A DNA stretch of 32,385 nt, from positions 1 through 32,385 of IMG/VR virus record IMGVR_UViG_3300031898_000272; one strand, written 5' to 3'. Below, piece after piece: positions 1 through 20,561 of the stretch. This stretch comes from a virus. The position numbers were made by a program, and so were the translations under genes. The stretch's first letter is position 1; every line of letters begins with the position of its first letter. The notes beneath the pieces were generated by a model that saw only the letters and a program-made list of their open reading frames with translations, had not been told where the DNA came from and did not search any database.

Positions 1-336
1 TTACGAGGATTGGACGAACAATGCCTCGTAGAGGGCTTGGTCCGGCTTGCCTGTCTGCCGAAAAACAGGGTCAACCATCAAACATGTCACTGTAGCCGAG
101 CCGTCTTCCAAGTCGAGGACCCGTGCAACTCCATCCGCAAGTCCTTTCAATGTCGTCTTTTGATTGACCACATCGCTCGTGATGATTCCTCTGATGACGA
201 ACTCGGCTCCGAAGTCACCGTGAGTAGTTCGCTTCGCCACGCTTTTCCCCGGGATTGCTCTTTCAACATAGATTTTTCTTTTGTGTTCCTCAACCTCTAA
301 AACCAACGGTAGAGTTGTGGTTCCAAACTTCACCAT
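1..336 (-). CDS. Small tail/baseplate-associated protein
   Basis: A complete 111-residue protein whose stop codon is the first three bases of the window. The stretch around residues 25-50 (ERAIPGKSVAKRTTHGDFGA, then EFVIRGII) resembles small siphovirus tail proteins in which an 'IPG..' turn is followed by a beta-rich segment with an 'I.G.' ending; such proteins sit next to the hub gene. It starts 6 bases after the stop of the hub C-terminal gene, so it is probably translated as part of the tail operon. The family assignment is by pattern only; no catalytic residues, signal peptide or membrane segment are visible. A structural role at the distal tail is inferred from position. Confidence 0.6.
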   Translation of the reverse strand: MVKFGTTTLPLVLEVEEHKRKIYVERAIPGKSVAKRTTHGDFGAEFVIRGIITSDVVNQKTTLKGLADGVARVLDLEDGSATVTCLMVDPVFRQTGKPDQALYEALFVQSS

Positions 337-342
337 TAGCCA

Positions 343-1587
343 TCACCTTCGTTGTATCAGCCGTTCAAGTGTGGAAAACAGGTCGGTGAGAGCAAGGGGC
401 CTATTGCCTAGTTCAAGCACCATCTTCTCGCCCTCCCCATACTCATGGGTGACTGATTGCACGTTGAATGTGTCATCGACTCCCAGGTTTGTGCTCTTGA
501 AACTGACTGCCTCATTAATCTTCACTATGTTCGGTCCGCAGTCAAGCTTCACAGTGACGGTAGGCTTCGAGAAGTTTGAGAGGATTTGAAGGGCGCGAAG
601 CTGACAGAGCAGATTGCTTGTCCACTGCGTTTCACTTACAATCATCAATCGCGTACCATACTTCTTTATCGCATCCTTGTCTTGAACCGTCACAACAATA
701 TCATTGCCTGAACCATCCTTTCCGCCCTTCAACGTGACCATCGTCACGATTCCACGCCAGTCCTCTATGTGCTCCATGACGAAGCAGTTTTCACCTTCAA
801 CAAATGGACGTAGCGGCTCAATTACAGCAGCCTTAAGGACTGGTTTAGTCAGCGAAGTGACTGCAAGAGCAACATATCGTGTAGCAACTTTGAGAAGCGA
901 GACAACAGAGGTACAGGTCGCGGCAAGCGTACGATAATATGACGCTGCTTTCGCTAGTGCTACAACACTAAGCTCAATAACAGCAAGCGTCCTGTAGTAT
1001 GCCGCTGTTTTCGCTAACGATGCAACAGAAACCTCGGTTACAGCAAGCGTCTTGTAATATGTCGGAGCGCCTGTATATGCGAATCCCTCTATGCGCGAGT
1101 TGTAGGTGCTGCTGCCGAATCGGAACCAAGACTCAGTGTAAGACGGATCGCCAGCCACATAGTTCCTCTTTGTCCAATAGTAGACGGTCCAATTTGCGGC
1201 GTCAAGCTGACTGCCATCAATGTCCTCTGTCTGCCAAGAGTCCAGCTGAGTCCAAGAGCCTGACCCATGTTTGCGGTAGGCTCTAACTACGATGCTGTCG
1301 CCCGAAGCGAGCGCTGTTTGAGGGCAGGACCACATGTTTGATTGTATGCCTTCCCCATTCACGCTTCGGCTGACTTGGGCGACCGGTGTTCCGGCCGTGA
1401 TCTCCGTTTCAACGCCGGCCGAGGATCTTTTCCACACCCGAATCCCGAAATATACAGCTACGCCGGAATCAATTGTATACGTGTAGTATTGAGCGTAAGT
1501 TGTTGATTGACTGGTGCCGAGCTCCTTGCAGGACAAACCATTGTTCTCTATCGTAGCGTTTTTGAAGTAACGCGTCTCAGTGGGCAA
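343..1587 (-). CDS. Jelly-roll-like protein with 4x20-residue repeats fused to tail hub C-terminal half
   Basis: 414 residues from a TTG start (MPTETRYF). Three parts can be seen. Residues 1-176 are beta-rich and aromatic, like a jelly-roll or carbohydrate-binding tail-fibre domain. Residues 177-256 are four tandem 20-residue repeats beginning YYKTLAV, YYRTLAV, YYRTLAA and RYVALAV. Residues 257-414 look like the second half of a siphovirus tail hub (GENCFVMEHIEDWRGIVTMV, later HEYGEGEKMVLELGN). The first half of such a hub is the C-terminus of the gene at 2111-3697, with two unrelated small genes between. The join falls exactly where the repeats end. It could be a real two-chain hub, a fibre-hub fusion made by recombination, or an assembly artefact. 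Tail role is likely; the domain names are inference. Confidence 0.7.
   Translation of the reverse strand: MPTETRYFKNATIENNGLSCKELGTSQSTTYAQYYTYTIDSGVAVYFGIRVWKRSSAGVETEITAGTPVAQVSRSVNGEGIQSNMWSCPQTALASGDSIVVRAYRKHGSGSWTQLDSWQTEDIDGSQLDAANWTVYYWTKRNYVAGDPSYTESWFRFGSSTYNSRIEGFAYTGAPTYYKTLAVTEVSVASLAKTAAYYRTLAVIELSVVALAKAASYYRTLAATCTSVVSLLKVATRYVALAVTSLTKPVLKAAVIEPLRPFVEGENCFVMEHIEDWRGIVTMVTLKGGKDGSGNDIVVTVQDKDAIKKYGTRLMIVSETQWTSNLLCQLRALQILSNFSKPTVTVKLDCGPNIVKINEAVSFKSTNLGVDDTFNVQSVTHEYGEGEKMVLELGNRPLALTDLFSTLERLIQRR
820..1059 (-). repeat. Tandem repeat, 4 copies of about 60 bp, in frame
   Basis: Four consecutive 60-bp units encode residues 177-196, 197-216, 217-236 and 237-256 of the surrounding protein. 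The consensus is roughly [YR]Y-x-[TA]-LAV-x-x-x-S-V-x-x-L-x-K. Units 1-3 are closely alike in DNA (each carries a version of GCAAGCGT followed by a tyrosine pair on the complementary strand); unit 4 is diverged. Because the period is a multiple of three, gain or loss of a unit keeps the reading frame. The array ends at base 820, one codon from where hub-like sequence resumes. Confidence 0.85.
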
Positions 1588-1597
1588 ATCAACGCGC

Positions 1598-1957
1598 CTA
1601 CGTTATCTCCAAATCGAATGTGAACTCGATCTTGTCACCTTGGTTCAGAGGCATGCCTGGGAAGTCTCCGTGCAGGATCAAAGTGCCTCCGGTGGACGCA
1701 GTGAAGTTTCCCGCGTTCGTAATGGTCTTCGCAGCGTCAGCAATCAAGGTGCCGACGACACGTATCTTGTCTGCTACTGGCTGAGTTATCGTTCCTTGAA
1801 CTCTGCTTTCGCTGCCGGGGGTGAAAAGACCCGTGGCCGATTTGCTGGCCGTGCCTGCGCCAGTTCCCCAGTGAATCCAGTCCGGCTCCGTCTGCACCAA
1901 CTCATCCAGTTTATCTACGATCCATTCTTCGCCGACCTGAGTTAGAACCGTAGCCAT
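1598..1957 (-). CDS. Phage tail-fibre-like small protein
   Basis: 119 residues, ATG start behind a good ribosome site (GGAGGTGA, about 4 bases upstream). The pattern is familiar from small phage tail proteins: an early 'W-x-x-W-G-T-G' segment (WIHWGTGAGT), a middle 'RVQGT..VVGT' strand pair, an 'ITNAGNF' turn, and a C-terminal 'LNQGDKIEFTFDL' strand. These usually lie with tail-fibre or receptor-binding genes and are predicted structural. Here the gene lies inside the block that separates the two hub halves. Its 5' end overlaps the 55-codon gene upstream by 16 bases. No enzymatic motif is visible. Confidence 0.65.
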   Translation of the reverse strand: MATVLTQVGEEWIVDKLDELVQTEPDWIHWGTGAGTASKSATGLFTPGSESRVQGTITQPVADKIRVVGTLIADAAKTITNAGNFTASTGGTLILHGDFPGMPLNQGDKIEFTFDLEIT

Positions 1958-2109
1958 TTTCTCACCTCCAGCAAGAGTTGTTTGATCTTGTCAACTCTCG
2001 TTGACCGTGTGGCTGCTATGACGCCCAGATCCTCCCACTTCCCTGTCTCCGCACGCCACACCCGTGCGCGGATCGTTGCTTTCCACTTCGCCCTCGACTT
2101 AATTCGCAT
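1942..2109 (-). CDS. Small basic tail-region protein (55 aa)
   Basis: A short frame starting MRIKSRAKWKATIRARVW and ending EVRKWLRF. It begins two bases after the stop of the hub N-terminal gene (TAG C ATG) and overlaps the next gene by 16 bases, the same tight packing as its neighbours. Its 'K-x-K-A-K-W-K-x-x-x-R-A-x-V' opening is like small proteins found beside the tail-fibre-like gene in other viruses, where a short strand such as 'R..V.DA.TGK' precedes a helix. No function is known to me. Confidence is moderate because the frame is short; its position and protein-like composition are the evidence. Confidence 0.5.
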   Translation of the reverse strand: MRIKSRAKWKATIRARVWRAETGKWEDLGVIAATRSTRVDKIKQLLLEVRKWLRF

Positions 2110-2110
2110 G

Positions 2111-3697
2111 CTACTCCACATTCATCTTTCGTTCCGCATCAACCATGAGCGAGGCATCGCCTAGGTTTGCGGCCTGTAACAGTAAATCGTAGGCAGTTGT
2201 GTTAGAAGCGTCGACCGTCACCGTGATGTTCTCCAAACCCAGAGCTATCTCGCCGAGGAGAACCTGCTTCATGGACGCGATGTAGGTGGAGTGAATCGAC
2301 TCGATAATCGCCTTCAAGGTTTGAGATGTAAATGTGACGCTTGCGATAGGTATGCGCATCAAGGCTTGGATCATGCTGCGTCCCTCAATACGCATCGACG
2401 GCGTCGGAGCAACTGTCTTTGCGAGAACCTCGATTCGCCCGAAAAAGATCCTTCTTCCGCGACGGTAGATGGCGAAGTCGAACAGTCCCTTTATCCACGT
2501 CTCTATTGCCGGCAGATCCATTGACGCAACGTTTTCAGGGGGGTTTGATGTTATGCGAATATTGTCACAGTCCGACACGCGTTTGCCTTGAATCCATACA
2601 TCGTACTCTTTTGAGCCGTCAGGGCAGTCGTCGTCATCGTGAACGCTGACTTCAATCGTTGTAAAGACGGGAGGATACACATCACTGCCCGGCCACTCCC
2701 CAAACACAACTGCGACTCCAATGGTCGACGCCGAGAGGGATGTCGAAGCCTTGCCATCGCTCCCCGTGACGCCACTGGTGGGATTCACGGTTCCATGCGA
2801 CGTTGTGAAACTGACGGCTTTTCCTACCGCCGGGTTTCCTGCCTCGTCTTTCAAAGTGAAGGTGATTGTCGCGCTGGTGGGTAAAGATGTGCCTTGCCTA
2901 TTGATGATGTAGTTGTCTGTTTCGACTGCGATTGAGTAGGATTCTCCGTAAAGGAGTTCATCGCCACCGAAGATATTGGTGAATAGTTCCGAAGTGTAGA
3001 CGAGGTTGTTTCCTGCATCATAGATTTTGTAACGACCTGTGATAGGATAAGAGAGGGTTGACACGTTGAGCGTTGCTATTCCGCCGGACTCGGTTGCCTC
3101 TGCGATCAGAGCATCGGAAGCGTCGAAAAGCTTGGCTTTGTAGCCACTCGCAAGGTTTGTGACTTTGATTGATCCGCTTCTGCAGACAACGATATCATCG
3201 AACCAGTGATACTGCGTGTTGTTTTGTAGCTCATACACTGGTACATATGATTCAACGCCGACTCGTAGATCCTTATCTCCAGCGCTTGTGGTTACTGTGT
3301 CGTTCTTCCAAATCCAAGTGTTTTGGTCGCCTGACGCTGGCTGATCGAGGAACAGTGAATCGCCAAGCCTCACGCGCCTCGCAAAACCCATAGTTGAGGG
3401 CGCAGCCTGCCAGCGGTGGCGAACCTGCATACGGACAGAAGTCGGGCCGGACGGGATCGTGACCGTTCGCTTGCGACGCAGGTATCTTCCAGCAGGTATG
3501 GGGTTTTCGGCGTTGGCGGGTGATTTCGTTAGCGCAAGAAGACTGTAAGGCGAGGAATAGCAGGGGCTGCCTGCGAGAGCTGTATAACTTGCATCGTTCC
3601 AGCCGTAGCCGAGATTCTTCTCCTCAACCCAGCCATTGAGATCATCGAACCTTGAATCGTAGATTTTCCCCTCGACCTGTCGCACCAGTGTGGGCAA
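2111..3697 (-). CDS. Tail hub N-terminal half with adhesin-like N-terminal domains
   Basis: 528 residues, TTG start 3 bases after the tape-measure stop. Domains: residues about 10-175, a beta-rich carbohydrate-binding-like domain ending WFDDIVVCRSG; about 176-240, a small PEGA-like fold (SIKVTNLASGYKAKLFDASD ... GRYKIYDAGNN); about 262-355, a Big_1/invasin-type Ig domain (SATITFTLKDEAGNPAVGKA, then GSDGKASTSLSAST); about 364-528, the first part of a tail hub (EYDVWIQGKRV ... FDFAIYRRGRRIFFGRIEVL ... DASLMVDAERKMNVE). The protein stops where a hub would normally continue; the continuation is found in the gene at 343-1587. Surface-binding domains attached to the hub suggest host recognition at the tail tip. 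Domain names are by pattern, not by search. Confidence 0.75.
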   Translation of the reverse strand: MPTLVRQVEGKIYDSRFDDLNGWVEEKNLGYGWNDASYTALAGSPCYSSPYSLLALTKSPANAENPIPAGRYLRRKRTVTIPSGPTSVRMQVRHRWQAAPSTMGFARRVRLGDSLFLDQPASGDQNTWIWKNDTVTTSAGDKDLRVGVESYVPVYELQNNTQYHWFDDIVVCRSGSIKVTNLASGYKAKLFDASDALIAEATESGGIATLNVSTLSYPITGRYKIYDAGNNLVYTSELFTNIFGGDELLYGESYSIAVETDNYIINRQGTSLPTSATITFTLKDEAGNPAVGKAVSFTTSHGTVNPTSGVTGSDGKASTSLSASTIGVAVVFGEWPGSDVYPPVFTTIEVSVHDDDDCPDGSKEYDVWIQGKRVSDCDNIRITSNPPENVASMDLPAIETWIKGLFDFAIYRRGRRIFFGRIEVLAKTVAPTPSMRIEGRSMIQALMRIPIASVTFTSQTLKAIIESIHSTYIASMKQVLLGEIALGLENITVTVDASNTTAYDLLLQAANLGDASLMVDAERKMNVE

Positions 3698-3700
3698 CCG

Positions 3701-5563
3701 CTATCGTCTCCACTTCACTGCGTTGCCGAGCTCGCGGCTGATCATCCTTGTCAAATTGCCAAGGTCCTTGACTTCGCCAGTCATCGACTGAATCGTGATA
3801 GGAATGTTCACTGTCATGTGTGCAGGACCGGATGGACCTGTTCCCCCCCTCCTGGATGCTGCAAACCCACCCATCGAAGGCGATAGTGAGAAAGCTGCGC
3901 TTCTGAAAGTGCTCTCGATTCCACCCAATCCTCTCTGTGTCTCAGAGAGGATCCCTTGGATGCCTTCTTTCGTCTGCCTGACCATCAGGTTCCACATGTC
4001 AGGCCAAATCGACTCTTGTGCAACCTCGTTCGAGAGGTTTTGAAGGGTGTTCTGCGTTTGCTGGGCTCCACTCGACACCATGTCTGTGATCTGCTTCCAT
4101 ATGCCGCCGAGGAAACTGACGATGCCATTCCAGAGATTCGTGAAGATATCTGTGATCGTCTTGCCCCAGGCGGTGATTGTGTCGACGATGCTGCCAAGCC
4201 AGCCAGTGATCCCTTTAATTAGGTTATCAAAGCCTGCCTTGAAAACTCCGAAAACCGCATCCATCAGCTCCTGCACAAACGAGCCGCCGACAAGCCACTT
4301 GTAGAATCCCTCGAACGTCTCCTTGAGCCAAGCGATGAAGCCTCCAATCGATTCGATCAACTGTTTGATGAACGGGGCCACAACCTCCACTGTAGCCCTG
4401 AATCCTTCCGCAAGCAATTGAATCACAGGTGTGACCAGTTTGATGACTTCGACGAGTCCTTGCAGAGCTGGGACCACAGTGACCTTCAAGATATCTGCAA
4501 TGAGATTGAAGATGGTGTAGGCGTTCTTGCCTTCCGTGCTCACGCCGGTAAGTGCTTCCCAGATCTTGCCGAACGCCTCGAAGACAGGTTGCAGTGCGGT
4601 CCAAACATCTTTCAGGGCGGACCATAACTCCTTGAAGACTGGAAGCACTGCTTTGCCTAACTCGTCGCCAATGGTCGCAAATCCCTTCGTAAGATCATTC
4701 CAGACTTTGCCGAGTCCCTCAGCCATCTTCTGGACTTCAGGCATCTCAGCGAAGGCTTTCCACGCCTGACCTATTCCCGTCACGAGTGAATCTGCGCCTT
4801 TGACAACCTCCCCCATCATGTTCTGAAAGGTAGTCATGACAGGAATGAGAGCGCTACCGATTTTCTCCTTCAAGTTGTCCATTGCGTTGGCGACTTGTTG
4901 TTGCTTCCCCGCGTAGCTCTCAACGTCTTTCTGAGCTGCCCCGCCAAACTTCTGAGAGATCAGCTCCATTGCAGTGGCGAACTCTTTTCCTTTCGGAACG
5001 CTTTCATCAAGTACGACACCCATGCTCCGTAGCGGCCGCTCCATACCAATGAACGCTTTTCCGACCGCATTGGCAGCCTCTCCGAGACTCACCTGTTTGG
5101 CAGCTGCAAGATCCATCGTCTGCGTCATGGCTTTCATCGCTTGCTCAACACTCATGCCGTGGTCGATGAGCGTCTTCATGGCCGCTGCGATCTGTTCGTC
5201 ACTGAAACGAGTCATCTTCTCAGCGCTGGAAGCGAAGCTCTCAATGCTTGTTCTCGCACTCTCCCAGGATACGCCCGACCTCTCGACCGTTGCTGCAAGC
5301 CTCATCCAGACTTCTTCACTTGCCTTCGCAGACTTGAAACAATCCTGCAGACCTTTCGTGACTTCGCCGACTGCGGCTGAGGCTGCTCCCATTACGCCTG
5401 CGCCTGCGAAGCCAGAGATCACATTGCCAAGACTCGTGAAGCCCCCTCCAAGATCCCCGATCACCCCTGAGAAAACACCGAGGCTAGCGCGGACCTTATC
5501 CATGGCGCTGGATGCTTCGTCTACACCTTTGATTGCAACAACAACTTCGCCTGAAACGCTCAT
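3701..5563 (-). CDS. Tail tape measure protein
   Basis: 620 residues. It sets tail length and is threaded through the tail tube. Residues about 60-240 carry the typical tape-measure pattern: alanine-rich helices, 'SVEQAMKAMTQTMDLAAAKQ', 'LGEAANAVGKAFIGMERPLR', 'SMGVVLDE' and 'QKFGGAAQ'. Residues about 255-540 contain long helices and repeated hydrophobic W/F-rich segments (for example VWTALQPVFEAFGKIWEALT, WLGSIVDTITAWGKTI). Its ATG overlaps the previous stop (ATGA at 5560-5563). At roughly 1.5 angstrom per residue, a general rule for these proteins, 620 residues would mean a short tail near 90 nm. It follows the chaperone pair and a gp10-like gene, as expected for a siphovirus tail. Confidence 0.92.
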   Translation of the reverse strand: MSVSGEVVVAIKGVDEASSAMDKVRASLGVFSGVIGDLGGGFTSLGNVISGFAGAGVMGAASAAVGEVTKGLQDCFKSAKASEEVWMRLAATVERSGVSWESARTSIESFASSAEKMTRFSDEQIAAAMKTLIDHGMSVEQAMKAMTQTMDLAAAKQVSLGEAANAVGKAFIGMERPLRSMGVVLDESVPKGKEFATAMELISQKFGGAAQKDVESYAGKQQQVANAMDNLKEKIGSALIPVMTTFQNMMGEVVKGADSLVTGIGQAWKAFAEMPEVQKMAEGLGKVWNDLTKGFATIGDELGKAVLPVFKELWSALKDVWTALQPVFEAFGKIWEALTGVSTEGKNAYTIFNLIADILKVTVVPALQGLVEVIKLVTPVIQLLAEGFRATVEVVAPFIKQLIESIGGFIAWLKETFEGFYKWLVGGSFVQELMDAVFGVFKAGFDNLIKGITGWLGSIVDTITAWGKTITDIFTNLWNGIVSFLGGIWKQITDMVSSGAQQTQNTLQNLSNEVAQESIWPDMWNLMVRQTKEGIQGILSETQRGLGGIESTFRSAAFSLSPSMGGFAASRRGGTGPSGPAHMTVNIPITIQSMTGEVKDLGNLTRMISRELGNAVKWRR

Positions 5564-5910
5564 CTAATTGCCTCCTTCACGGCTTTCCAACCGGCCTGAA
5601 TCAATTCGTCTCTGTAGGCCTCGAGAGCTGGACGAATGAAAGGTCGAGCAGCCATCCGCAGGATTCCCATCTCGACGAAGAGCGCATAGTCAGCGGAAGC
5701 TCCAAACTCAAAGTCCAAGAGCCCAACCGGTTTGAAGAAAATAGTTGACCGAAGGTAGCCCGTACGAACCGGGCAGATGTCGTATGCATAATTACGCATT
5801 AGTCCTCCGACCGTCTGCAGCTGCTGTGAGAAAGATTCCTTGAGGCGAGCAGCTATTCGTTCCAGCATTGGGGTAGCAGTGTCCTTGGTGATGCGGATTG
5901 AGAAGCTCAT
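5560..5910 (-). CDS. HK97 gp10-like minor tail/neck protein
   Basis: 116 residues from the ATG at 5910 (MSFSIRITKD). A longer reading to 5988 exists, but 5910 is chosen because its ATG overlaps the stop of the GT extension (ATGA, 5907-5910). The family pattern is clear: helical start, 'PVRTGYLRSTIFF', 'FGASADYALFVEMG', and 'RPFIRPALEAYRDEL'. HK97 gp10-like proteins act at the head-tail joint or tail completion. Here the gene sits between the chaperone pair and the tape measure, whereas in many phages it lies between connector and terminator genes. Its end overlaps the tape-measure start by four bases. Confidence 0.85.
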   Translation of the reverse strand: MSFSIRITKDTATPMLERIAARLKESFSQQLQTVGGLMRNYAYDICPVRTGYLRSTIFFKPVGLLDFEFGASADYALFVEMGILRMAARPFIRPALEAYRDELIQAGWKAVKEAIR

Positions 5911-6104
5911 CTTCTTCGACCTTTCACGGATCTTGTGGCTTGCTTGAGTTGATGCCCCATCGCATGAAGCAGGAACAGGGCTTGACATAGCGGGATCCTA
6001 GCGACTTCTGATGGTGTACGATGCAGTAAAGAGCAGAGCGCGTAGAGCGCCTGTCCTTCCGGGGACCGCGCTAGGTGGGCGACGGGGTCCGCACTTGTAA
6101 AGGG
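5907..6104 (-). CDS. T extension of tail assembly chaperone GT (made by -1 frameshift)
   Basis: This frame is open in -1 relative to the G gene and has no credible start of its own. After slippage at CCCTTTA (6104-6098) ribosomes would read TSADPVAHLARSPEGQ and on to SVKGRRR, adding 63 residues to the first 121 of G, for a GT product of about 184 residues. The extension contains a compact helical pattern (ALYALCSLLHRTP, then LCQALFLLHAMG) like T segments of other siphovirus chaperones, which bind the tape measure. Its stop overlaps the next start as ATGA. The frame, heptamer register and gene order agree; the shift itself is inferred. Confidence 0.8.
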   Translation of the reverse strand, partial: PFTSADPVAHLARSPEGQALYALCSLLHRTPSEVARIPLCQALFLLHAMGHQLKQATRSVKGRRR

Positions 6105-6460
6105 GCCAGAGGTTTCCCTAAGCCTAGTGCGTTGATGATAGAGACGCATTTCGTCAAGCCTAGCTTCATCAGGTTCTCGTCGGTGACCGTAGAATCAGCA
6201 CGTCCCCAGGTCGCCAAGAGAACCTTCAAGGCTATCTTGAACGGATCCTTCTCTTCTGCGATTGTTGGATAGTCGCCGAAACGCAGATCGTGGTACTTGA
6301 TCTTGCAGCCAAGGTCCGGTACGAACGCTTCGCGTGGTCCCTCATCTTCGCTGAGAAGTTCGGCTAAGGTCTTGAGTTTGGCCTCTTCAGCTTTGGCTAG
6401 TCGCTTTGATTCCTCTTCCAACCGCTTCTCGAACTTGCTCTTCTTCTCCTCTTCTCCCAT
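6071..6460 (-). CDS. Tail assembly chaperone G
   Basis: 129 residues, ATG behind a strong ribosome site (AAGGAGGAG, about 6 bases upstream). Residues 1-40 are a charged helix rich in E and K (MGEEEKKSKFEKRL ... KTLAELL); residues 45-110 hold the small globular part (FVPDLGCKIKYHDLRFGDYP ... FKIALKVLLATWGRADSTVT). This layout, directly after the tail tube and before the tape measure, with an overlapping -1 frame, is that of lambda gpG and its relatives, which coat the tape measure before tube polymerisation. Its start lies inside the preceding small gene (74-base overlap). Confidence 0.85.
   Translation of the reverse strand: MGEEEKKSKFEKRLEEESKRLAKAEEAKLKTLAELLSEDEGPREAFVPDLGCKIKYHDLRFGDYPTIAEEKDPFKIALKVLLATWGRADSTVTDENLMKLGLTKCVSIINALGLGKPLAPLQVRTPSPT
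6098..6104 (-). promoter_or_regulatory. Programmed -1 frameshift slippery heptamer CCCTTTA
   Basis: On the minus strand the bases read C CCT TTA in the G frame (codons 120 Pro and 121 Leu), an exact X XXY YYZ heptamer in register (6460 minus 6103 is 357, a multiple of 3). Slipping back one base gives CCC TTT, so both tRNAs keep two or more pairs. Seven bases downstream is GGACC, with GGTCC about 20 bases further on, which could form a stimulatory stem. The -1 frame then stays open to 5907. Confidence 0.85.
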
Positions 6461-6635
6461 TTTCTCTCCTCCTTCGAACTATGAACAGCTCGCTCGTGGA
6501 TCCGGTGTGATAGATCAGCCGGGTCCTCGGCAAGCTGCGTATGAAGTCTCGAATGGCCGCATAGTCTTCCAAGGGGCCATGACAGACGAAGCCTATCGAG
6601 ACTTTGACCTCCAAATCTCTCTTCTCTACGGTCAA
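6387..6635 (-). CDS. Small protein of unknown function between tail tube and chaperone
   Basis: 82 residues from a TTG start with GGGGAG just upstream. Residues 1-55 look like a real small alpha/beta domain (RDLEVKVSIGFVCHGPLEDY, AAIRDFIRSLPRTRLIYHTG, SELFIVRR); the last 25 residues are very basic and overlap the G gene. The same region in another frame gives a low-complexity peptide, so this frame is preferred. The gene is in the same frame as the tail tube and begins 30 bases after its stop. I do not recognise the family; a tail-assembly role is only a guess from position. Confidence 0.5.
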   Translation of the reverse strand: MTVEKRDLEVKVSIGFVCHGPLEDYAAIRDFIRSLPRTRLIYHTGSTSELFIVRRRRENGRRGEEEQVREAVGRGIKATSQS

Positions 6636-7127: not shown

Positions 7128-7508
7128 CTATGATTTCGTGATTAGGATCGTGATACGGAAGTCGAAGGATCGACGCCAGACGTCCTCCTCGGGTAGGTCG
7201 CGTCCTCCCCAAGGAACAATGTCGACGAAGCCCATCGCAGTCCTTGCCTCAAACAGCTTCGTGAGGACCTTGTCGGCGAATTCACGCATCTGACTCTCCA
7301 CTCGAGCCCAGATATCAACTTGGAAGCTCACATCCAGGTACTGCATCTTGTCAGGGAAGCCGCCTCGAATCCGCGTAAAGATCAACTGCAGAGTGGCTGA
7401 TGGCAACGGGAACCCGCGTGGAGGCCTAACCTCATAGACCGTCAAGCCCTCGATCTCACGAAGCTTCCCAGCGATCGCATTCTCAATGGTTTGGATAGGA
7501 GTCGACAT
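7128..7508 (-). CDS. Tail terminator / tail completion protein
   Basis: 126 residues, ATG start. The sequence runs helix-strand (MSTPIQTIENAIAGKLREIE), 'VYEVRPPRGFPLPSATLQLI', 'YLDVSFQVDIWARVESQMRE' and a C-terminal 'RRSFDFRITILI' strand. This is the pattern of gpU/DUF3168-type terminators that cap the tail tube: an N-terminal helix, a proline-rich loop, and a long helix between paired strands. It lies directly upstream of the tail tube, as usual. It begins 6 bases after the stop of the membrane protein. The 63 bases after its end hold only the ribosome site of the tube gene. Confidence 0.75.
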   Translation of the reverse strand: MSTPIQTIENAIAGKLREIEGLTVYEVRPPRGFPLPSATLQLIFTRIRGGFPDKMQYLDVSFQVDIWARVESQMREFADKVLTKLFEARTAMGFVDIVPWGGRDLPEEDVWRRSFDFRITILITKS

Positions 7509-7514
7509 GCGTCC

Positions 7515-7877
7515 TCATCGATCTGCCTTTTGGATATGTAGCCGTGAAGCAGTCAAGAGCAGGCGAACGTTCCATGCGCATCCAAAGCCAAGCAAAACCG
7601 TTGCAAGGATCACTGCTAGCCAGGCAAAAGGACGGAAGCGGGGAATATCAAGAAAGATGATCATAAGGTAGACATGTAGCCAGCTGACCGCTGCTACTTT
7701 GAGGACTGCGAACCATCCCCAGCCGACCTTTCCGATCAGCGAAAATAGGAACAGGTTGTCCTCTCGGAGACCATGATGGCGGATACCAAGCTCGGTGATC
7801 AAGAGGTCAAAGATGTTCAGCGCCCACATTACCCAAAGCAGGTTCACGAAGACAAGTTCAGACCACATGGCTCTCAC
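7515..7877 (-). CDS. Membrane protein (DUF5658-like) within the tail module
   Basis: 120 residues with three or four predicted membrane segments: about 8-27 (FVNLLWVMWALNIFDLLITE), 45-65 (LIGKVGWGWFAVLKVAAVSW), 66-80, and 85-107 (FAWLAVILATVLLGFGCAWN). The 'NIFDLLITELG' segment followed by an E/N-containing loop is like DUF5658 membrane proteins found in archaea and their viruses. The start overlaps the end of the connector gene by four bases (7874-7877), so it is translated with head-tail genes although it is not an obvious virion part. A lysis or membrane-anchoring role is possible; nothing in the sequence decides it. Confidence 0.7.
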   Translation of the reverse strand: MRAMWSELVFVNLLWVMWALNIFDLLITELGIRHHGLREDNLFLFSLIGKVGWGWFAVLKVAAVSWLHVYLMIIFLDIPRFRPFAWLAVILATVLLGFGCAWNVRLLLTASRLHIQKADR

Positions 7878-8407
7878 CTTGTCGCTGCAAATGTGTGGCT
7901 TGTTATCTGGCGAAGAATCTCCATAGCCCTCGCCTTGAACAGTTTCTCCTTCTCCTCGCTCTTGGCCAGGCGGTGGAAACAGTACGATGCCGCGAGAAAT
8001 GTGGAGGCCTCCTGGATAGGCTTCATGCTGTAGCGGTATGTCATCTCGACCTCTACACCTATCGATGGCGCGGTTGTGAAGATGATCTTGCCTTCAGCCC
8101 CTCGAAGCTCGAACTTGTCTGATGCTTGCTGGACGGTATCTACGTAGACTGTGACTTTCGTTTCGTCGTCGGTTGTGTTGCCCTGGTCATCAACGACAGG
8201 CTTGTAGGTAGTTCGGAAGGTTTTGTTCGCCGAGGACTTTTGTATGCCCAGGAGTTCCTTGATCTGCTGTCCCGTCCAGACCTTCTCTGTAATCTGTTCT
8301 ATGTCGCGGTCTGCCCAACCAATCATCTCGTCGACTATTGCATCGCTGATCTCTGTAGCTGTCAGCCCAGAGAGGTTTCTAACCTCAGCTTTCGTCGTGT
8401 ATGGCAA
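7874..8407 (-). CDS. Head-tail connector (gp6-like)
   Basis: 177 residues from TTG (MPYTTKAEVRNLSGL). The opening 'YTT..EVR.L.GL' and 'ATEISDAIVDEMIGWADRDI' helices are typical of gp6/gp15-type connector proteins, as is the C-terminal helix after 'TFLAASYCFHRLAKSEEKEK'. Residues 60-125 form an inserted beta-rich part (FRTTYKPVVDDQGN ... VTVYVDTVQQASDKFELRGA ... VEVEMTYRYS), common in archaeal-virus versions. It would sit as a ring below the portal. Its position right after the capsid gene fits. Confidence 0.75.
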   Translation of the reverse strand: MPYTTKAEVRNLSGLTATEISDAIVDEMIGWADRDIEQITEKVWTGQQIKELLGIQKSSANKTFRTTYKPVVDDQGNTTDDETKVTVYVDTVQQASDKFELRGAEGKIIFTTAPSIGVEVEMTYRYSMKPIQEASTFLAASYCFHRLAKSEEKEKLFKARAMEILRQITSHTFAATR

Positions 8408-8441
8408 ACACAGTCAACTCTAATGTTTCAGTCGAATTCCT

Positions 8442-8488
8442 CAAAAATGGGGAAACTTCTCAAACACGGGAAAATTGTGGGAAAAAGG
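8442..8488 (-). terminator. U-rich tract after the capsid gene, possible archaeal terminator
   Basis: Read on the minus strand, the 94-base gap after the capsid stop contains T runs of 5, 4, 3, 3 and 5 separated by short C/G pieces. Archaeal transcription can end at such U-rich stretches without a hairpin. On the plus strand the same region shows three loosely repeated GGGAAA blocks. A partial terminator here would lower expression of tail genes relative to capsid. This is weakly supported. Confidence 0.3.
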
Positions 8489-8501
8489 GGATCTTCAGGG
8501 C

Positions 8502-9581
8502 TTAGGCTGTGATCAGCTTCACGATGCCCTTCGTGTTCAGGACGCCTAATCCGTACTCCATCGTGCCATACAGGTAGGTCTTCCTTTCGCCAGGCTCGTA
8601 CTTCGGTTCCACTTCAGGGTCCCGCTTGACTTCCTCGACCCACACTCTCTCGCTGATCAGGAAAGCGTGGTAGGTTGTGATTCCTCCGGCGCCCGTGCCG
8701 GTCGGAACCTGTGTGGTCTTCAGCACCTTGATTCCAAGCCATTGTCCGATCTCGCCGTTCAATATGACTTCTCGTCCGCCGTACTGGGCGGCGTTGATGA
8801 ACTTGTCGCTCTTCAGCAACGGGCCTTCCTGTGCCGGATGGATGACCACCACGCGAGGCTCACGCTTCTCCTTCCGCATCGTGGTTATCGCATTCGCCAG
8901 GAGGTCAGTGGAGAACACATCGCTTGAGTCAACTGTGGCCTCCGAGGTGGCATCTCCACCGTAGAGGGTTCCTGCAATTCCTGATGCTGCTTCGAGCGCT
9001 GCCAAGATATCTTTGTCCTCTTTGTTGGCGACAGCTTCCGAGAGAAGATCTGTCAGCACATCGACCACATTGAAGGTGACTTGTTCGATGACTTGTCTTG
9101 TAACCGAGATCGCTGCGATAATCTCCTTTACCGTGATTTCCAGACGATCAACAGTCACTGCAAGGTCATCTGGCTTGGTGCCTTCAGTCGCATCAATCGC
9201 CTCAAGGACCGTGGGGACCTTGGGGAAGTAGAACTTGTTGCCGGGCTGGCCCCGCAGCGTCGTGTCAACGATACCTAGCGCCCTCATCACTCGCTTCGGT
9301 TGGGCGCCGAGTTCAACCTGCGGCGACCAGACGATCGGTATGGCTTTCACCGCGTCCGTTGTAGTCAAAGATTCGCGTAGTTTGTTGACGACCTTGATCT
9401 GCCAGGGCCCTATGGCTTCTTCGAGTACGGGTGGGGCTACGATCCCTTTCCCTGCTTCTTCCTTACTCACTTTCGGTTCAACCTCCTTCTTCTCCTCGAG
9501 CTGCTCCTTCAGCCGCAGAAGATCCTCTGTAGGAACATGCTCTAGGCCAGTAGAAGCATTCGAGGAAGGAGTCTCGTTCAT
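8502..9581 (-). CDS. Major capsid protein (HK97 fold)
   Basis: 359 residues; ATG behind AAAGGAG (8 bases). Residues 1-55 are a charged helix (TEDLLRLKEQLEEKKEVEPK) like the HK97 delta domain, probably removed by the prohead protease. Then come 'NKLRESLTTTDAVKAIPIVW', 'KFYFPKVPTVLEAIDATEGT', 'ISVTRQVIEQVTFNVVDVLT' and 'RVVVIHPAQEGPLLKSDKFI', ending 'YGTMEYGLGVLNTKGIVKLI', which matches the A-domain and P-domain order of HK97-type shells. It lies just after the protease and before the connector, the standard order. The unusually clear ribosome site fits high expression. Confidence 0.9.
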   Translation of the reverse strand: MNETPSSNASTGLEHVPTEDLLRLKEQLEEKKEVEPKVSKEEAGKGIVAPPVLEEAIGPWQIKVVNKLRESLTTTDAVKAIPIVWSPQVELGAQPKRVMRALGIVDTTLRGQPGNKFYFPKVPTVLEAIDATEGTKPDDLAVTVDRLEITVKEIIAAISVTRQVIEQVTFNVVDVLTDLLSEAVANKEDKDILAALEAASGIAGTLYGGDATSEATVDSSDVFSTDLLANAITTMRKEKREPRVVVIHPAQEGPLLKSDKFINAAQYGGREVILNGEIGQWLGIKVLKTTQVPTGTGAGGITTYHAFLISERVWVEEVKRDPEVEPKYEPGERKTYLYGTMEYGLGVLNTKGIVKLITA

Positions 9582-9663
9582 ACAATCAACTCCTTTCGAG
9601 AATTTTCCTGTTACTCATCGATCCGCTTGCGCGGTCTCAGTAACTATGATGAATGAATGAAGT

Positions 9664-10254
9664 CTAGGCCTTCACGCCTCGTCTTCTGAGCTCAGCCACA
9701 ACCGCAGCCAAGTATTGTTCTCGCTGTTGGGGATTGAGAGACTCGCTTAGCTTGCGCTTCCAGAGCATGATGCTTGTAAAAGGATCGCCGGGGGCAACAT
9801 CTTCGGTGAGTAGGTCAAGGCGTGTGAAGACTATTCCTCGTGGAACAAGGACTCTTGTTTCTTCGGCATCGCGGCTTCTATACTTCGCTTCTATGCTGAC
9901 ATTCCTTATTTTGCCAGCGTCATAGAGCCTGTTGACTTCCTCATCCACAACCCTGATGATGGCTTCGGCCTTCATGTCTTCGAACTCTGAGTCTACAACC
10001 TTGTTTCGTGGAAATGGAAGTTGCCTTTGATGGTTGAGGCCTAGAGGTTTATCAGCCAGAGAGCGGGCTGAGGACATTAACTCTTCCTCTGTGTACTTGG
10101 CGCGGTTCCCAGTTGTGGTGACGTGGATCGCGTGGACCTTGTAGAAGCGCCCTTCCTCGCCTTCCACCATCTTGTAGAACTCAATCGGCGGCGCCCAGCG
10201 GAACGATTCGGCTAGGCTTGCGATTCGGAATCTAAGCTTTCTCACCAGATTCAT
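9664..10254 (-). CDS. Prohead maturation protease
   Basis: 196 residues; the ATG overlaps the portal stop (ATGA). The herpes/HK97-type serine protease pattern can be seen: His75 in 'LGLNHQRQ' and Ser120 in 'RNVSIEAKYR', separated by about 45 residues, with 'FTRLDLLTEDVAPGDPFTSI' following, a segment common in these proteases. It would cleave the capsid delta domain inside the procapsid. Residues 8-14 are RFRIASL; nearly the same motif opens two membrane proteins of the same module (14761-15114 and 16435-17190). The C-terminal helix after 165 may act as a scaffold or targeting segment. Confidence 0.8.
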   Translation of the reverse strand: MNLVRKLRFRIASLAESFRWAPPIEFYKMVEGEEGRFYKVHAIHVTTTGNRAKYTEEELMSSARSLADKPLGLNHQRQLPFPRNKVVDSEFEDMKAEAIIRVVDEEVNRLYDAGKIRNVSIEAKYRSRDAEETRVLVPRGIVFTRLDLLTEDVAPGDPFTSIMLWKRKLSESLNPQQREQYLAAVVAELRRRGVKA

Positions 10255-11645
10255 TGCTGGTTCGCCTTTTCTGCAGGCGATCGTTTCGCCTCGCCTTCCT
10301 GAAGTTCGAAGCCTGCGTACTTCGCCAGCATGTTGCGTACTTCGTCTCTGGTGAGGTATTCGACGCCGCTTGAGGCGCTGATCTGAGCTAGTTGAACGAT
10401 GTGCTCCACCTCAACTTCGGGGCGTTCCTGCATGCCCCAGCGGATTCGAACCCCTGCTGCTTTCGGATCGATGTCATTTTGCTGGAGAAGGATCTTGAAG
10501 ACTTCTCTCTCAACGGTCCGTGCTAGGTCCCGTTGCAGTTTTGTGATCTTTCGGTCAGCCATCTTTGTGGCTTCGGTTGCGCTTGCCTCTGTGAAGCCTG
10601 GTGTCGTGAATAGGCGCGTCATAGGAGTTTGGAGGCCTTGCACCACCTGTGAGTTGATGTGCTCGATCATGCCGTCGAATCGGGCAGAAGGATTAATGTC
10701 CAAGGAGTCAACTTCGACAGGCTTGTTCGTGACGAAGTCTGCGTCTGTTGGTGCTGACTGAATTGTCGGGGCATACTCCTTCTCCAGCTTCTCGTCGCCC
10801 ACGCCTTCAAACTTCCAAAGCCGTTTCGGTGCCGCGTAGCGGTGAACGATCTTCTGTATGTCATCCTCGAGTCGAGCTTTGATGTCTAGGAACGCCGGTC
10901 GAACGCTGGTCTCGTCGATCTGCTTGCTTGTTGCGAGGCTGTGCAGGATCCCCATGCCCCATGCGGACCCGTCCACAGGATTCAACCGGAAATGAATGAT
11001 CTCTTCAGCAGTGAACTCGACCTTGTCTGTGCCTATCTGTTGAATGTAGTTTTGAGCGCGTCCGCCAATCTTGCTTCGTAAGATGAATTTGATCGATGAG
11101 AGGGGCAGAATCTTCAAGGAGACAAGCTTCTTGTTGGCGAAGACCCTCTCCCAGAAGCAGTTGCCTGACAAGACAACCTCCTTCGAGGTTTGCATGAGCA
11201 GGCCGTCCATGTTCACCTCGTCACAGAAGTCGTCAATTATCTTCTTGGCCTCTTCGAAGCCGGGTTCGCAGACGGTATAGAATCCTGCGCCTGCGACCTG
11301 TTCGCCTATGTAGTCAACGGCCGCCATTACCGCCGGGTCTTTCAGGTAGTAGTCGACAAGCGTTGCAAGGCTGACCGGAGGCTGCTCCCCTAGCCTAGCT
11401 TTCATGGCAGGAATGAAAAGCCCCTTTTCAGATGTTGCCTCTCTAAGCGCTTCTGTTATCTTTCCTGGAAGCCGCTGGAACCTTTGAAACGCGGGGATAG
11501 ATATCTTTCGAGTTATGGCTTGAAAGAATCCTTTGCCTCTTTCACTCAAGTCTTCTCGCCTTTCAAGGAGTAGTTGCGGATGACGAGGTTCGCTAGTGCG
11601 CCTCGGCGTGGTCCTTGGCCCCATTTGCGTGAAGCCATCGGACAT
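10251..11645 (-). CDS. Portal protein
   Basis: 464 residues; ATG after AGGAGG (5 bases), which supports this start even though it lies 100 bases inside the methyltransferase gene. Family features: 'VDYYLKDPAVMAAVDYIGEQ', 'ETSKEVVLSGNCFWERVF'-like core (here QTSKEVVLSGNCFWERVF), 'LPLSSIKFILRSK', 'EIIHFRLNPVDGSAWGMGIL' and 'GFTEASATEATKMADRKITK' before long C-terminal helices. The portal forms the dodecameric DNA gate at one capsid vertex and docks the terminase. Residues 1-60 are basic and poorly ordered in appearance. Gene order terminase-portal-protease-capsid is standard. Confidence 0.9.
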   Translation of the reverse strand: MSDGFTQMGPRTTPRRTSEPRHPQLLLERREDLSERGKGFFQAITRKISIPAFQRFQRLPGKITEALREATSEKGLFIPAMKARLGEQPPVSLATLVDYYLKDPAVMAAVDYIGEQVAGAGFYTVCEPGFEEAKKIIDDFCDEVNMDGLLMQTSKEVVLSGNCFWERVFANKKLVSLKILPLSSIKFILRSKIGGRAQNYIQQIGTDKVEFTAEEIIHFRLNPVDGSAWGMGILHSLATSKQIDETSVRPAFLDIKARLEDDIQKIVHRYAAPKRLWKFEGVGDEKLEKEYAPTIQSAPTDADFVTNKPVEVDSLDINPSARFDGMIEHINSQVVQGLQTPMTRLFTTPGFTEASATEATKMADRKITKLQRDLARTVEREVFKILLQQNDIDPKAAGVRIRWGMQERPEVEVEHIVQLAQISASSGVEYLTRDEVRNMLAKYAGFELQEGEAKRSPAEKANQQ

Positions 11646-12364
11646 CGAATCCTCCTAATGATCAAGCCTCGACCATTGTAGAGCTGACGAATCAGAGGAT
11701 GATTGCCATAAGTGAGAAGCCACTTGCCTTTGACCTGGCGCAGCAAAGCGGCAAGATCTCTATGGTCCTGTTCGCTGAACGGTGAGGGGCGTGCCTGCTC
11801 TGTTTCCGGGTAGGGTGGATCAAGGAAGAAGAATGTCTTGTCGCTGTCCCAGTTTCTAATGCATCTTCTGAAGTCCAAGCAGTCAACGTAGACGCTGTGC
11901 AGGCGTTCAGCGACGACGTTGATTGTTTGGGCGCAATTAGCCCATGCAGTAGCTTTGCGTTGGCGTGCTCTACCGAAGGCCCATCCAGCATGCCACCTGC
12001 CAGAAAACGATGATCGCATACAGTAGTAGAAGGCTACTGCCCTCTCGACGGGATCTGGGATCTTGCCCGAGTCGATTTGAGCCATATACTTGTAGTAGAG
12101 TTCGCGGCTGTAGGGAAGCCACTCGAGCCGCTTCAGGAATTCGTCCTTGCGATCTCGAACCACGGTGAAGAGGTTGACGAGTTCCTTGTCGCAATCATTG
12201 TAGACCTCGACTGGGCTGCGTTCCTTGGCGAACAGTAAGGCAGCTGCGCCTCCGAATACCTCTACATAAACCTCGTGAGGTGGAATAAGCGGTAGCAGCT
12301 TCTTCACTAGGAAGTGCTTTCCGCCCAGGTATGGAAAGAACCGTGAGGCTATCCAGAACTTCAA
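11546..12364 (-). CDS. DNA adenine methyltransferase (D12/Dam class)
   Basis: 272 residues from TTG, its start overlapping the upstream stop as TTGA. D12-class motifs: 'FFPYLGGKHFLVKKLLPLIP' (PY.GGK), 'VYVEVFGGAAALLFAKERSP' (SAM-binding motif I region), 'EVYNDCDKELVNLF', and the catalytic 'FFFLDPPYP' (DPPY). It would transfer a methyl group to adenine N6, probably protecting viral DNA from host restriction or marking packaging sites. The recognition site cannot be told from the sequence. The last 33 codons overlap the portal gene in another frame, so the C-terminus is constrained by two proteins. Confidence 0.85.
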   Translation of the reverse strand: MKFWIASRFFPYLGGKHFLVKKLLPLIPPHEVYVEVFGGAAALLFAKERSPVEVYNDCDKELVNLFTVVRDRKDEFLKRLEWLPYSRELYYKYMAQIDSGKIPDPVERAVAFYYCMRSSFSGRWHAGWAFGRARQRKATAWANCAQTINVVAERLHSVYVDCLDFRRCIRNWDSDKTFFFLDPPYPETEQARPSPFSEQDHRDLAALLRQVKGKWLLTYGNHPLIRQLYNGRGLIIRRIRCPMASRKWGQGPRRGALANLVIRNYSLKGEKT

Positions 12365-12519
12365 CCGTGGCGCTTCCTCTCTTCAAGCCATTCCTCGAGG
12401 TCGACCATGCAGTCATGACAGAGTGTGAGTGTTATCGAGTAGCCTTCAGAGATGCTGTCTCCGCAGCATGCGCAAGCCCTGCGGAGCGACCTGCGAAGCC
12501 ATCCGCCTTTCTTCTTCAT
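12361..12519 (-). CDS. Small Cys4 zinc-binding protein
   Basis: 52 residues from ATG 12519 (MKKKGGWLRR); a longer frame to 12675 reads a low-complexity sequence and is not favoured. Cys16/18/19 and Cys34-x2-Cys37 (ACACCGDSI ... LCHDCMVDL) can bind one zinc. The ATG overlaps the previous gene's stop as ATGA (12516-12519) and its own stop overlaps the methyltransferase start, so it is clearly part of the operon. The helix after Cys37 (DLEEWLEERK) is acidic. Function unknown; DNA or protein binding is possible. Confidence 0.65.
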   Translation of the reverse strand: MKKKGGWLRRSLRRACACCGDSISEGYSITLTLCHDCMVDLEEWLEERKRHG

Positions 12520-12707
12520 GGCTTCTTCCTCTGCTGTGCGATGTAGTAGCGGATCTTGTTCGGGTCGACTTGGCAGAGATGGCAGACAGGGACTCTTGCG
12601 ACCTGTTTCGCGCTGACTCTCACTCTGAGAAACGAGATCTCGCTGCGGGAGACTAGGCGCTTGCACATGACGCACTGGATGAACTCCTCTTGTCTGACTT
12701 TCGGCAC
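12516..12707 (-). CDS. Small Cys4 zinc-binding protein
   Basis: 63 residues from GTG. Cys12-x2-Cys15 (FIQCVMCKR) and Cys42-x2-Cys45 (VCHLCQVD) are a treble-clef-like zinc site with a 26-residue basic spacer. It starts 3 bases after the terminase nuclease stop and overlaps the next zinc protein by four bases. Two adjacent tiny zinc proteins between terminase and methyltransferase suggest accessory roles in packaging or transcription, but this is inference from location only. Confidence 0.65.
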   Translation of the reverse strand: MPKVRQEEFIQCVMCKRLVSRSEISFLRVRVSAKQVARVPVCHLCQVDPNKIRYYIAQQRKKP

Positions 12708-12710
12708 AGG

Positions 12711-13271
12711 CTATCTCTTCCGAATTGGAATCAGAACTGGGGTTTCACTCTCTCGAGAAGCGTAGACAGCCAGAGCGATTGCCCATAGACGGTCGTCGTG
12801 AGTTCCTTCTGGATGCGAGAACTTGATCTGCCCGTCTTTCGTCAGCTCGAACTTCTCTAGGTTGACCTCGGCGATGACTTCAGGGTCGTAAGGGATTCGG
12901 AGGAGACGGAGATGATTGCATTTCGGGTTTCCGCAGGCTTCGACACAGTTCTGCATCTGCTGCTTCATGTAGCCAAGGACTTCTTGCTTCGACTGCATCG
13001 TGAGCATGATGCCTTCAACGTTCGTCAGCCCTGCTGATTTCATGTCCTCAACGACGTATTCGCCGACGCCTGTTTGGTCGACAAGGATCTTTTCGGGTTT
13101 GAATCGGACGGAGAGGATCTTGATGAATCCGATGACGCTGGCATAAGGTGTGTCGAGAGGGAACCGTTTCACGAAGATTAGCTTCGCGATCTTGTCTTGT
13201 TTCGCCGCGACTGCGACGGTTGAGTAGTCAACCTTCTTTCCGAGGTCAACTCCTACGAAGTGGAGTGGCAA
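12711..13271 (-). CDS. Terminase large subunit, nuclease domain (separate gene)
   Basis: 186 residues from TTG (MPLHFVGVDLGKK). The RNase H-like nuclease motifs are present: Asp9 in 'FVGVDLGKKVDYST', Asp65 in 'KILVDQTGVGEYV', and Asp159/Asp160 in 'EGTHDDRLWAIALAVYA'. This domain cuts the concatemer during headful or site-specific packaging. It normally forms one chain with the ATPase; here it overlaps the ATPase gene by 26 bases in the +1 frame. Together the two are 481 residues, a normal full length, so nothing seems lost. It may be translated alone (GGAG lies about 10 bases before TTG) or joined by +1 slippage at CTT-G. Confidence 0.85.
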   Translation of the reverse strand: MPLHFVGVDLGKKVDYSTVAVAAKQDKIAKLIFVKRFPLDTPYASVIGFIKILSVRFKPEKILVDQTGVGEYVVEDMKSAGLTNVEGIMLTMQSKQEVLGYMKQQMQNCVEACGNPKCNHLRLLRIPYDPEVIAEVNLEKFELTKDGQIKFSHPEGTHDDRLWAIALAVYASRESETPVLIPIRKR

Positions 13272-14133
13272 GGATATCGCTCTCCGAGATCAACGCCAAA
13301 TCTGGGTCGATGCACCGTGTGATTAGATCCTGTGGGAAGTAGCTGTCCTCATCCTCGACGAATTCCGCATCGTATTCTCGTCGGAATCGTTCGATCGGTG
13401 TGACTCGCTTGACTTCCTCGATGAAGTTGGGCTCGATGGGTCCGTGGGGTTTGACGCATGCCTGCCATGGCACGTAGTGTTTGCTCCAGCCTTTGCTGAT
13501 CTCTGGATGTGTGTTGATCTTGTAGAAGACTGAGTCTTTCCCCCAGGGTGTGCTTGATGCAATTAAGGTTCCGTTTGTTGTCGCCATCATTGGATAGAGC
13601 ACGTTGTAGAAGATCACTTCGTCGTCGCGGAAGAACGCCGCCTCGTCTATGAGGACTTGATGCGCTGTGTATCCTCGCAAGAGGTTCGGTGAACATGGTA
13701 GGGCGACCATTTGGCTGCCGTTGCGGAACCAGATCACTGTTCGCTGGACTTTGGCGATAAGATGCTTGCGGTCTTCAGGGGTCATGCCATAGATGAACGC
13801 TTGAATCCTATCCATCATGATCATCGATTGCCGGAGAGATGGGGCCACGATCAATGAGAGGGTTCGGGGGTGCGTGGCTGCATACCAGATTGCGCGGACT
13901 GCGATTGTTGTTGTCTTGCCTGCTTGTCGGCTCATGCGGACCGTGATTCTTTTCGATTTGTCGGTTAGAACATTGATCTGATACTGATACGGTGTGAACT
14001 TTAGGTAATGCTTGGCAAAGTAGACAGGACTATCATATGCTTTCTTGATGCGTGCAAGCGTGTCATTGCTTGCTGGCGCTGTCTTTTCCTCTGCGCTTCC
14101 GAGGCGTTTCTCGAGGGCTTTCCATTCCGACAT
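13246..14133 (-). CDS. Terminase large subunit, ATPase domain (separate gene)
   Basis: 295 residues. Packaging motor ATPase: 'FTPYQYQINVL' adenine-binding region, Walker A SRQAGKTT (68-75), Walker B VLIDEAA (160-166), coupling motif SSTPWG (193-198). The end 'RFRREYDAEFVEDEDSYFPQ' is the usual linker towards the nuclease, after which the frame stops at residue 295 and the nuclease continues in the +1 frame. Its start overlaps the RHH gene by 71 bases. All motor motifs are intact, so the split is unlikely to be simple decay. Confidence 0.88.
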   Translation of the reverse strand: MSEWKALEKRLGSAEEKTAPASNDTLARIKKAYDSPVYFAKHYLKFTPYQYQINVLTDKSKRITVRMSRQAGKTTTIAVRAIWYAATHPRTLSLIVAPSLRQSMIMMDRIQAFIYGMTPEDRKHLIAKVQRTVIWFRNGSQMVALPCSPNLLRGYTAHQVLIDEAAFFRDDEVIFYNVLYPMMATTNGTLIASSTPWGKDSVFYKINTHPEISKGWSKHYVPWQACVKPHGPIEPNFIEEVKRVTPIERFRREYDAEFVEDEDSYFPQDLITRCIDPDLALISESDILATPLRRS

Positions 14134-20559: not shown

Positions 20560-20561
20560 TC

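Follow-up and report, generated by a model that had tools for sequence, protein, structure and literature searches.

Does a block of tail-fibre genes interrupt the tail hub gene of this virus, or was the hub already made of two chains? The question is raised by one end of IMG/VR record IMGVR_UViG_3300031898_000272, a complete virus record of 32,385 bases (the window). On its minus strand, a tape-measure gene is followed by hubN, which seems to encode the N-terminal part of a tail hub; by a 55-codon gene; by a gene for a protein of 119 amino acids (aa), p119; by a 414-aa gene; and by a 111-aa gene, p111 (Table 1). The hubN open reading frame (ORF) ends in LMVDAERKMNVE, with a stop codon at 2113-2111, and hub-like sequence starts at residue 257 (nucleotide 819) of the 414-aa protein, with EPLRPFVEGENCFVMEHIED. 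We will refer to the last 158 residues of this protein as hubC. The block that separates the two halves consists of the 55-codon gene (which begins with an ATG at 2109), p119, and residues 1-256 of the 414-aa protein, which are fibre-like. We consider it probable that the hub is naturally formed by two chains, split after domain 2, and that a fibre cassette lies at the boundary between the two genes, with the fibre fused to hubC.

hubN adjoins the tape-measure gene, as expected of a Mu gp44/T4 gp27-type hub, and contains a Big_1 Ig-like domain (Pfam, E = 1.3e-10). hubC passes the cut-off for the YQBQ-like family PF24032 (31.0 bits versus 27; profile positions 179-293 of 294) and matches the tail protein family phrog_400 (E = 1.4e-7). 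Against database phages, tblastn found no match for the 414-aa protein, and hubN matched over just 17% of its length, in Brevibacillus phages. A search of viral_contigs with the single hubC sequence gave no match; a three-row alignment of hubC matched two contigs, both of which were among the relatives found before. Among 400 genomes of the class of a metagenome-assembled genome titled Nitrososphaerales (the genome_contigs match described below), 4 matched hubC and 14 matched p119; the locus from this search that we read gene by gene was L041.

We collected related records by scanning viral_contigs with portal, terminase, hub, tape-measure, and p119 queries, and we compared them by tblastn (E <= 1e-3, 58 loci). 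hubN was found in five further records: L008 (IMGVR 3300031898_000029; 73% identical to the window's hubN), L009 (3300031877_000322; 70% identical), L029 (3300031604_000169), L027 (IMGVR 3300031876_000140), and L044 (IMGVR 3300031877_000321). The L027 record stops within hubN, so it is uninformative about hubC. In all three of the relatives that have both halves as separate genes (L008, L009, and L029), hubN and hubC are adjacent, without the block, and the hubN stop aligns to that of the window: hubN ends with DADRKMHVR in both L008 and L009, DASRTLHVR in L029, and DAERKMNVE in the window. In these relatives, hubC has its own start codon (ATG in L008 and L029, TTG in L009). In L008 and L009, hubC and hubN are in different frames, and a GAGG at the end of hubN is a candidate ribosome-binding site for hubC; in L029, they are in the same frame, and hubC lies two codons past the hubN stop. 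Given these start codons and the candidate GAGG, separate translation of hubC is a simpler explanation than frameshifting or readthrough. Since the same stop and the same gene boundary exist in relatives that lack the block, the stop at 2113-2111 was not caused by the block. Judging by these alignments, the block lies at the boundary between two predicted hub genes, and the comparison supports a two-chain hub as an older feature that is common to the block-free relatives.

A sequence-only reading of this locus had placed the end of hubN and the resumption of hub-like sequence correctly, had recognized the 55-codon gene, the tail-fibre-like gene, and the repeat array in between, and had raised the possibility of a two-chain hub. 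Its suggestion that the block interrupts a hub gene is not supported, and we rejected a literal insertion into a one-gene hub because the block-free relatives share the hubN stop. As a separate observation, hubC of L029 is extended at its C terminus, and the end of the extended part is similar to residues 164-250 of hubN (hmmsearch, E = 6.1e-4, on L046, which is from the same record).

Are the two halves parts of one hub? A continuous hub chain is absent from the window and from all three of the two-gene relatives, but L044 has one: a single 693-aa ORF between the tape-measure gene and a p111-like gene. The sequence-only reading had proposed looking for a continuous hub in related viruses. The window's proteins match the L044 hub by plain tblastn (E = 1.7e-27 for hubN and 6.3e-5 for hubC), as do the full hubN profile (E = 1.6e-42) and the hubC profile (E = 3.9e-5). 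With hhalign, columns 5-145 of the hub part of hubN align to residues 362-499 of the L044 hub (E = 7.1e-5), and columns 4-153 of hubC align to residues 539-686 (E = 1.9e-5). The profile scores against L044 were 20.5 and 24.0 bits, versus maxima of 4.4 and 6.3 bits across 500 shuffles each. Ungapped extension puts the end of hubN at about residue 531 and the start of hubC at about residue 536, so the two halves abut on the L044 hub. By homology, hubN and hubC are one hub, and L044 is the best demonstration of this. hubC-like ends are also found in L014/L015 (546-codon open frames; hubC profile, E = 3.1e-8) and in L031 (841 codons; E = 8.8e-4). In L031, the stretch that aligns to hubN ends at 679, just ahead of the expected start of hubC. 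We did not count L014/L015, L031, or the one-chain hubs of L030/L023 as support.

We also asked where in a hub the break falls. From four sequences, we modelled the part of hubN that corresponds to a hub. The best match of this model in PDB (Foldseek) was the MuSo2 43 kDa tail protein 3cdd_D (E = 5.2e-5, probability 1.00), and all five PDB matches at E <= 0.001 were chains of 3cdd. With VIA-align, the model aligned to 3d37_B with Z = 9.9 and a root mean square deviation (rmsd) of 2.3 over 84 residues (model residues 83-173). Model residues 86 or 88 to 173 aligned to residues 90-175 of Mu gp44 (1wru; Z = 8.1), and the model also aligned to residues 90-174 of the phiCD508 hub (9g8s_q; Z = 7.9) and to residues 113-198 of T4 gp27 (1wth; Z = 6.2). 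The first half of the model aligned at an rmsd of about 7-9 only. With the hubC profile, 9g8s_q (residues 190-290, E = 0.065) was the one PDB match at E up to 1. Taken together, the alignments and the models suggest that the break between hubN and hubC falls where domain 2 of Mu gp44/T4 gp27-type hubs ends. The hubC half itself is present by sequence homology, and its hub fold is putative.

The block is a fibre cassette. p119 is preceded by GGAGGTGAG, and it is 45.5% identical to the "tail collar fiber protein" of MW202796, whose gene is located downstream of the capsid gene. The p119 homologue of L029 has a weak match to PF12571 (Phage_tail_fib; E = 5.6e-4, 20.4 bits, under the cut-off of 23). 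No Pfam family matched the 55-codon gene or fibre residues 1-256. AF2 placed strands within fibre residues 32-172 (blockwise predicted local distance difference test scores, or pLDDT, of 41-75 over residues 41-160), and residues 1-256 close with a 20-residue repeat that occurs about 3.5 times, with period-60 direct repeats at 923-1042. That is, the window has a tail-collar-fibre-like gene beside a repeat fibre, which is what we call a cassette. A 59-aa reading of the 55-codon gene has tblastn matches ahead of the p119 homologue in the records listed in Table 1.

We read the position of the cassette in four of the nine records with p119 homologues (L020/L029, L021/L045, L023, and L026, leaving aside L018, L019, L022, L024, and L025). 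In all four, it stands elsewhere: in three of them, it is between the capsid and tail genes, namely between the homologues of p177 and p126 in L029 and L023 and between those of the capsid gene and p142 in L026; and in L045, the p119 homologue is ahead of the gene for the capsid (PF05065, E = 2.7e-33). L041 has a p119-like gene (E = 2.2e-4) downstream of a one-chain hub, from which a single small gene separates it. The window has a 120-aa ORF in the p177-p126 place; its DNA is 92.6%, 89.7%, and 87.7% identical in L027, L009, and L008, respectively, and has no match in L029, L023, or L030. The fibre ORFs of L029 (795 aa), L023, and L026 terminate independently after long repeat arrays. Among the records read, only in the window does the repeat array continue in frame into hubC; the sequence-only reading had missed this fusion. 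The different positions in related records support, at the level of gene order, a relocatable or exchangeable fibre cassette. Of the earlier suggestion of a mobile or exchangeable cassette, it is the exchangeable part that stands: neither a recombinase, nor an intron, nor long repeats at the ends were found. The earlier reading had also attached meaning to a GAG codon at both joins, and we rejected GAG as a joining site. The last codon of hubN is AGG or CGA in the relatives; the right-hand GAG lies in a stretch that resembles the repeat motif (12 of 13 nucleotides are shared with 973-985); and homology to hubC begins a few codons beyond it. The shared GAG is therefore uninformative. GAGGTAGC is common to the hubN ends of L008 and L009 and to the end of the p177 homologue of L029; a short-homology join may have taken place there.

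If the hub is naturally divided, then hubN would carry the N-terminal part, the Ig-like domain, and hub domains 1 and 2, and hubC would carry the remainder. The cassette, which is located elsewhere in kindred viruses, would have arrived at the boundary between the two genes. The 55-codon gene begins 1 nucleotide past the hubN stop codon, and a GGAG at the end of hubN may serve as its ribosome-binding site, albeit with a short spacing of 4 nucleotides. The fibre gene, without an end of its own, continues into hubC, so that the second hub chain would have gained a covalent fibre. Presumably, hubN and hubC fold as separate chains and then come together at the end of the tail in the manner of a one-chain hub. 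Because every hubC would have a fibre at its N terminus, the number and the position of the fibres would be fixed covalently.

Several results weigh against this interpretation. The fusion layout is known from a single assembly: no other record was found to have the block at the hubN/hubC boundary. The hubN model is weak (pLDDT of 54), and the same VIA-align list includes unrelated secretin-type domains at Z = 6.5-8.2, so Z alone is not decisive. A search of PDB sequences with the hubN profile gave no match at E up to 5. For the 414-aa fusion, the model is poor (pLDDT of 40) and had no PDB match at E <= 0.001, so the hub fold of the window's hubC is putative. Not all of the one-chain hubs are informative, either: hubN is not significantly similar to those of L031 (E = 0.5) or L014/L015 (E = 0.33), and against those of L030/L023, both halves reach E = 0.07-0.09 only (0.094 for hubC). 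On the supporting side, nonsynonymous differences in hubC between the window and L008/L009 are less frequent than synonymous ones (pN = 0.32-0.33 versus pS = 0.82-0.83), which is consistent with purifying selection on hubC, but the synonymous sites are saturated, which makes this a coarse test.

The locus might instead be an assembly chimera; in that case, the true place of the cassette would be elsewhere in this virus or in another virus from the sample, with hubN next to hubC as in the relatives. Besides the single record, the positions of the cassette in relatives and the location of both joins within 2.2 kb of the contig end would fit with this, as would the drop in identity to L008: from 75-91% across the first 308 residues of hubN (in windows of 44) to 50-68% beyond, and then to 47% in hubC. 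However, the divergence begins inside hubN, before the block, and extends into p111 (56% identical to L008), so it looks like another allele of the whole tail tip; L008 and L009 are 83-90% identical to each other in each of these genes. p111 is nearer to L029 (71%) than to L008/L009 (53-56%), which is the opposite of the tape measure (94% identical between the window and L008), as in a mosaic tail tip. The window's tail tip thus seems to be another allele, which may have been acquired by recombination. Also, the longest exact repeats that span either join are just 8-10 nucleotides, with none longer than 10, which is similar to 60 random positions (mean 9.5, maximum 13). Repeats of this length are too short to mislead a k-mer assembler, and the reading frame from the fibre to hubC is open across the join. 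We consider a chimera unlikely.

It is a little less likely still that hubC is no longer part of a hub and is merely the anchor domain of a fibre protein. Such a change of role would fit with the fibre at its N terminus and with its divergence: hubC of the window is 47-50% identical to those of L008 and L009, while those two are 83% identical to each other. But this is the sole match to hubC in the record (E <= 0.001), it retains positions that are conserved in the relatives as well as passing the YQBQ-like cut-off, and hubN terminates at the point where domain 2 is complete in one-chain hubs. Least probable of all, and in our view very improbable, is a cassette that actively moves or varies by phase, or an intervening sequence that is removed from the RNA or from the protein. 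The place of the cassette does vary between related records, but there is no long repeat at the joins, no match in Rfam for 600-2400 at E up to 1 (which led us to reject an intron), and no recombinase or nuclease family in the proteins of the block at E up to 1, with inteins looked for through Pfam only. Splicing would also leave the shared hubN stop of the block-free relatives unexplained. Overall, a natural two-chain hub with a fibre cassette at its gene boundary seems to be the best explanation.

Table 1. Features of the window and of the divided hub genes in three relatives
Record	Feature	Coordinates	Strand	Remarks
Window	p111 (111-aa gene), after the hub in relatives as well	1..336	-	56%/53%/71% identical in L008/L009/L029
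Window	hubC, putative C-terminal hub half, fused in frame to fibre	343..819	-	PF24032 YQBQ-like, 31.0 bits
Window	Fibre repeat array, 20-residue repeats	820..1071	-	Repeat search; similar arrays in L029, L023, L021, L024, L026
Window	Fibre gene residues 1-172 (jelly-roll of the sequence-only reading)	1072..1587	-	Mainly beta strand by AF2
Window	414-aa gene (fibre and hubC)	343..1587	-	
Window	p119, 119-aa tail-collar-fibre-like gene	1598..1957	-	64-80% identical homologues, 9 records
Window	55-codon gene, first of fibre cassette	1942..2109	-	tblastn matches in L029, L023, L024, L026, L018
Window	hubN	2111..3697	-	528 aa; N-part of unknown fold, Big_1 Ig-like domain (275-331), predicted hub domains 1-2 (~356-528)
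Window	Tape-measure gene, directly before hubN	3701..5563	-	PHROG tape-measure families, best E 5.8e-23
Window	120-aa ORF between p177 (7874-8407) and p126 (7128-7508)	7515..7877	-	Cassette place of L029 and L023
L008	hubN	7553-9136		
L008	hubC	9142-9612		
L009	hubN	8001-9587		
L009	hubC	9593-10063		
L029	hubN	9861-11468		
L029	hubC	11475-12851		

Around the hub, a p111 profile (from the window, L008, L009, and L029) recognizes the gene that follows the L044 one-chain hub (E = 6.6e-20). The match to that gene (5857-6630) is in two parts, residues 2-78 and 224-254, which looks like the result of a domain insertion. In L009 (10064-11927), the p111 domain opens a 458-aa protein, and the next gene is weakly p119-like (hmmsearch, E = 0.0052). 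Elsewhere in the window, a subtilase (Peptidase_S8, E = 5.1e-51) is encoded at 15089-16201, upstream of the packaging genes, and likewise in L003, L004, and L011. The DNA methylase match at 20520-21797 covers positions 148-213 of the 221 in the profile only, so this gene might be split or rearranged. The single match in genome_contigs was a metagenome-assembled genome titled Nitrososphaerales, with the tape measure only (58 residues at 33% identity; E = 1.6e-11 in a profile search of the locus), which does not settle the host. The large terminase (12711-14133) consists of two overlapping ORFs, with the ATPase part at 13246-14133 and the nuclease part at 12711-13271. L002, L004, L007, L011/L023, and L026 likewise have these parts in different frames, but a single frame holds both in L003, L005, L006, L013, L014, and L015.

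More broadly, we tentatively suggest, with more doubt than confidence, that this lineage split its hub between two domains, giving two chains, and that the new chain end became a port for fibre fusions, so that host-binding parts could be exchanged without touching the ring-forming N-terminal half. Some members also have a two-frame terminase, divided at the ATPase/nuclease boundary, so the lineage may have split genes between domains more than once. If the hub is naturally divided, it would reveal which joint of a hub can be non-covalent, and it would be a natural case of fibre attachment by fusion instead of docking. The swapping of host-binding parts would also become testable in viruses that are known only from metagenomes.

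How does this hub compare to known systems? Among the matches listed for the hub and fibre literature, titles and abstract openings do not describe a functional two-gene hub, and in an excerpt of one paper, a hub gene that is split into two coding sequences is said to point to a probable genome defect or sequencing error (PMC8026635). The grafting of domains onto gp27-like hubs is already known, according to excerpts of two papers (PMC7291167, PMC2147016). As described in the first, evolved Dit and Tal proteins with carbohydrate-binding modules also have adhesion modules grafted onto a gp27-like hub; those modules are on Dit or Tal, while the graft in the window is on a chain end that is owed to the two-gene hub (PMC7291167). 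In the hyperplastic gp27-like hub of Bacillus thuringiensis phage 0305phi8-36, domains have been exchanged and the ring domains are still recognizable, but, in the excerpted account, the exchange is inside one hub gene (PMC2147016). The baseplate hub of the archaeal tailed virus HFTV1 is a trimer with three tail fibres at the hub N termini; unlike the fusion in the window, those fibres consist of a distinct protein that is attached through hydrogen bonds and metal ions (PMC12494034). The hub of the window resembles the Mu gp44, T4 gp27, and XkdQ/YqbQ-type hubs in the order of its putative domains, in its place after the tape measure, and in that its halves match successive parts of a hub made of one chain. 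It differs from them in that it is encoded by two genes, split after what seems to be domain 2, and in that the second chain has a fibre at its N terminus.

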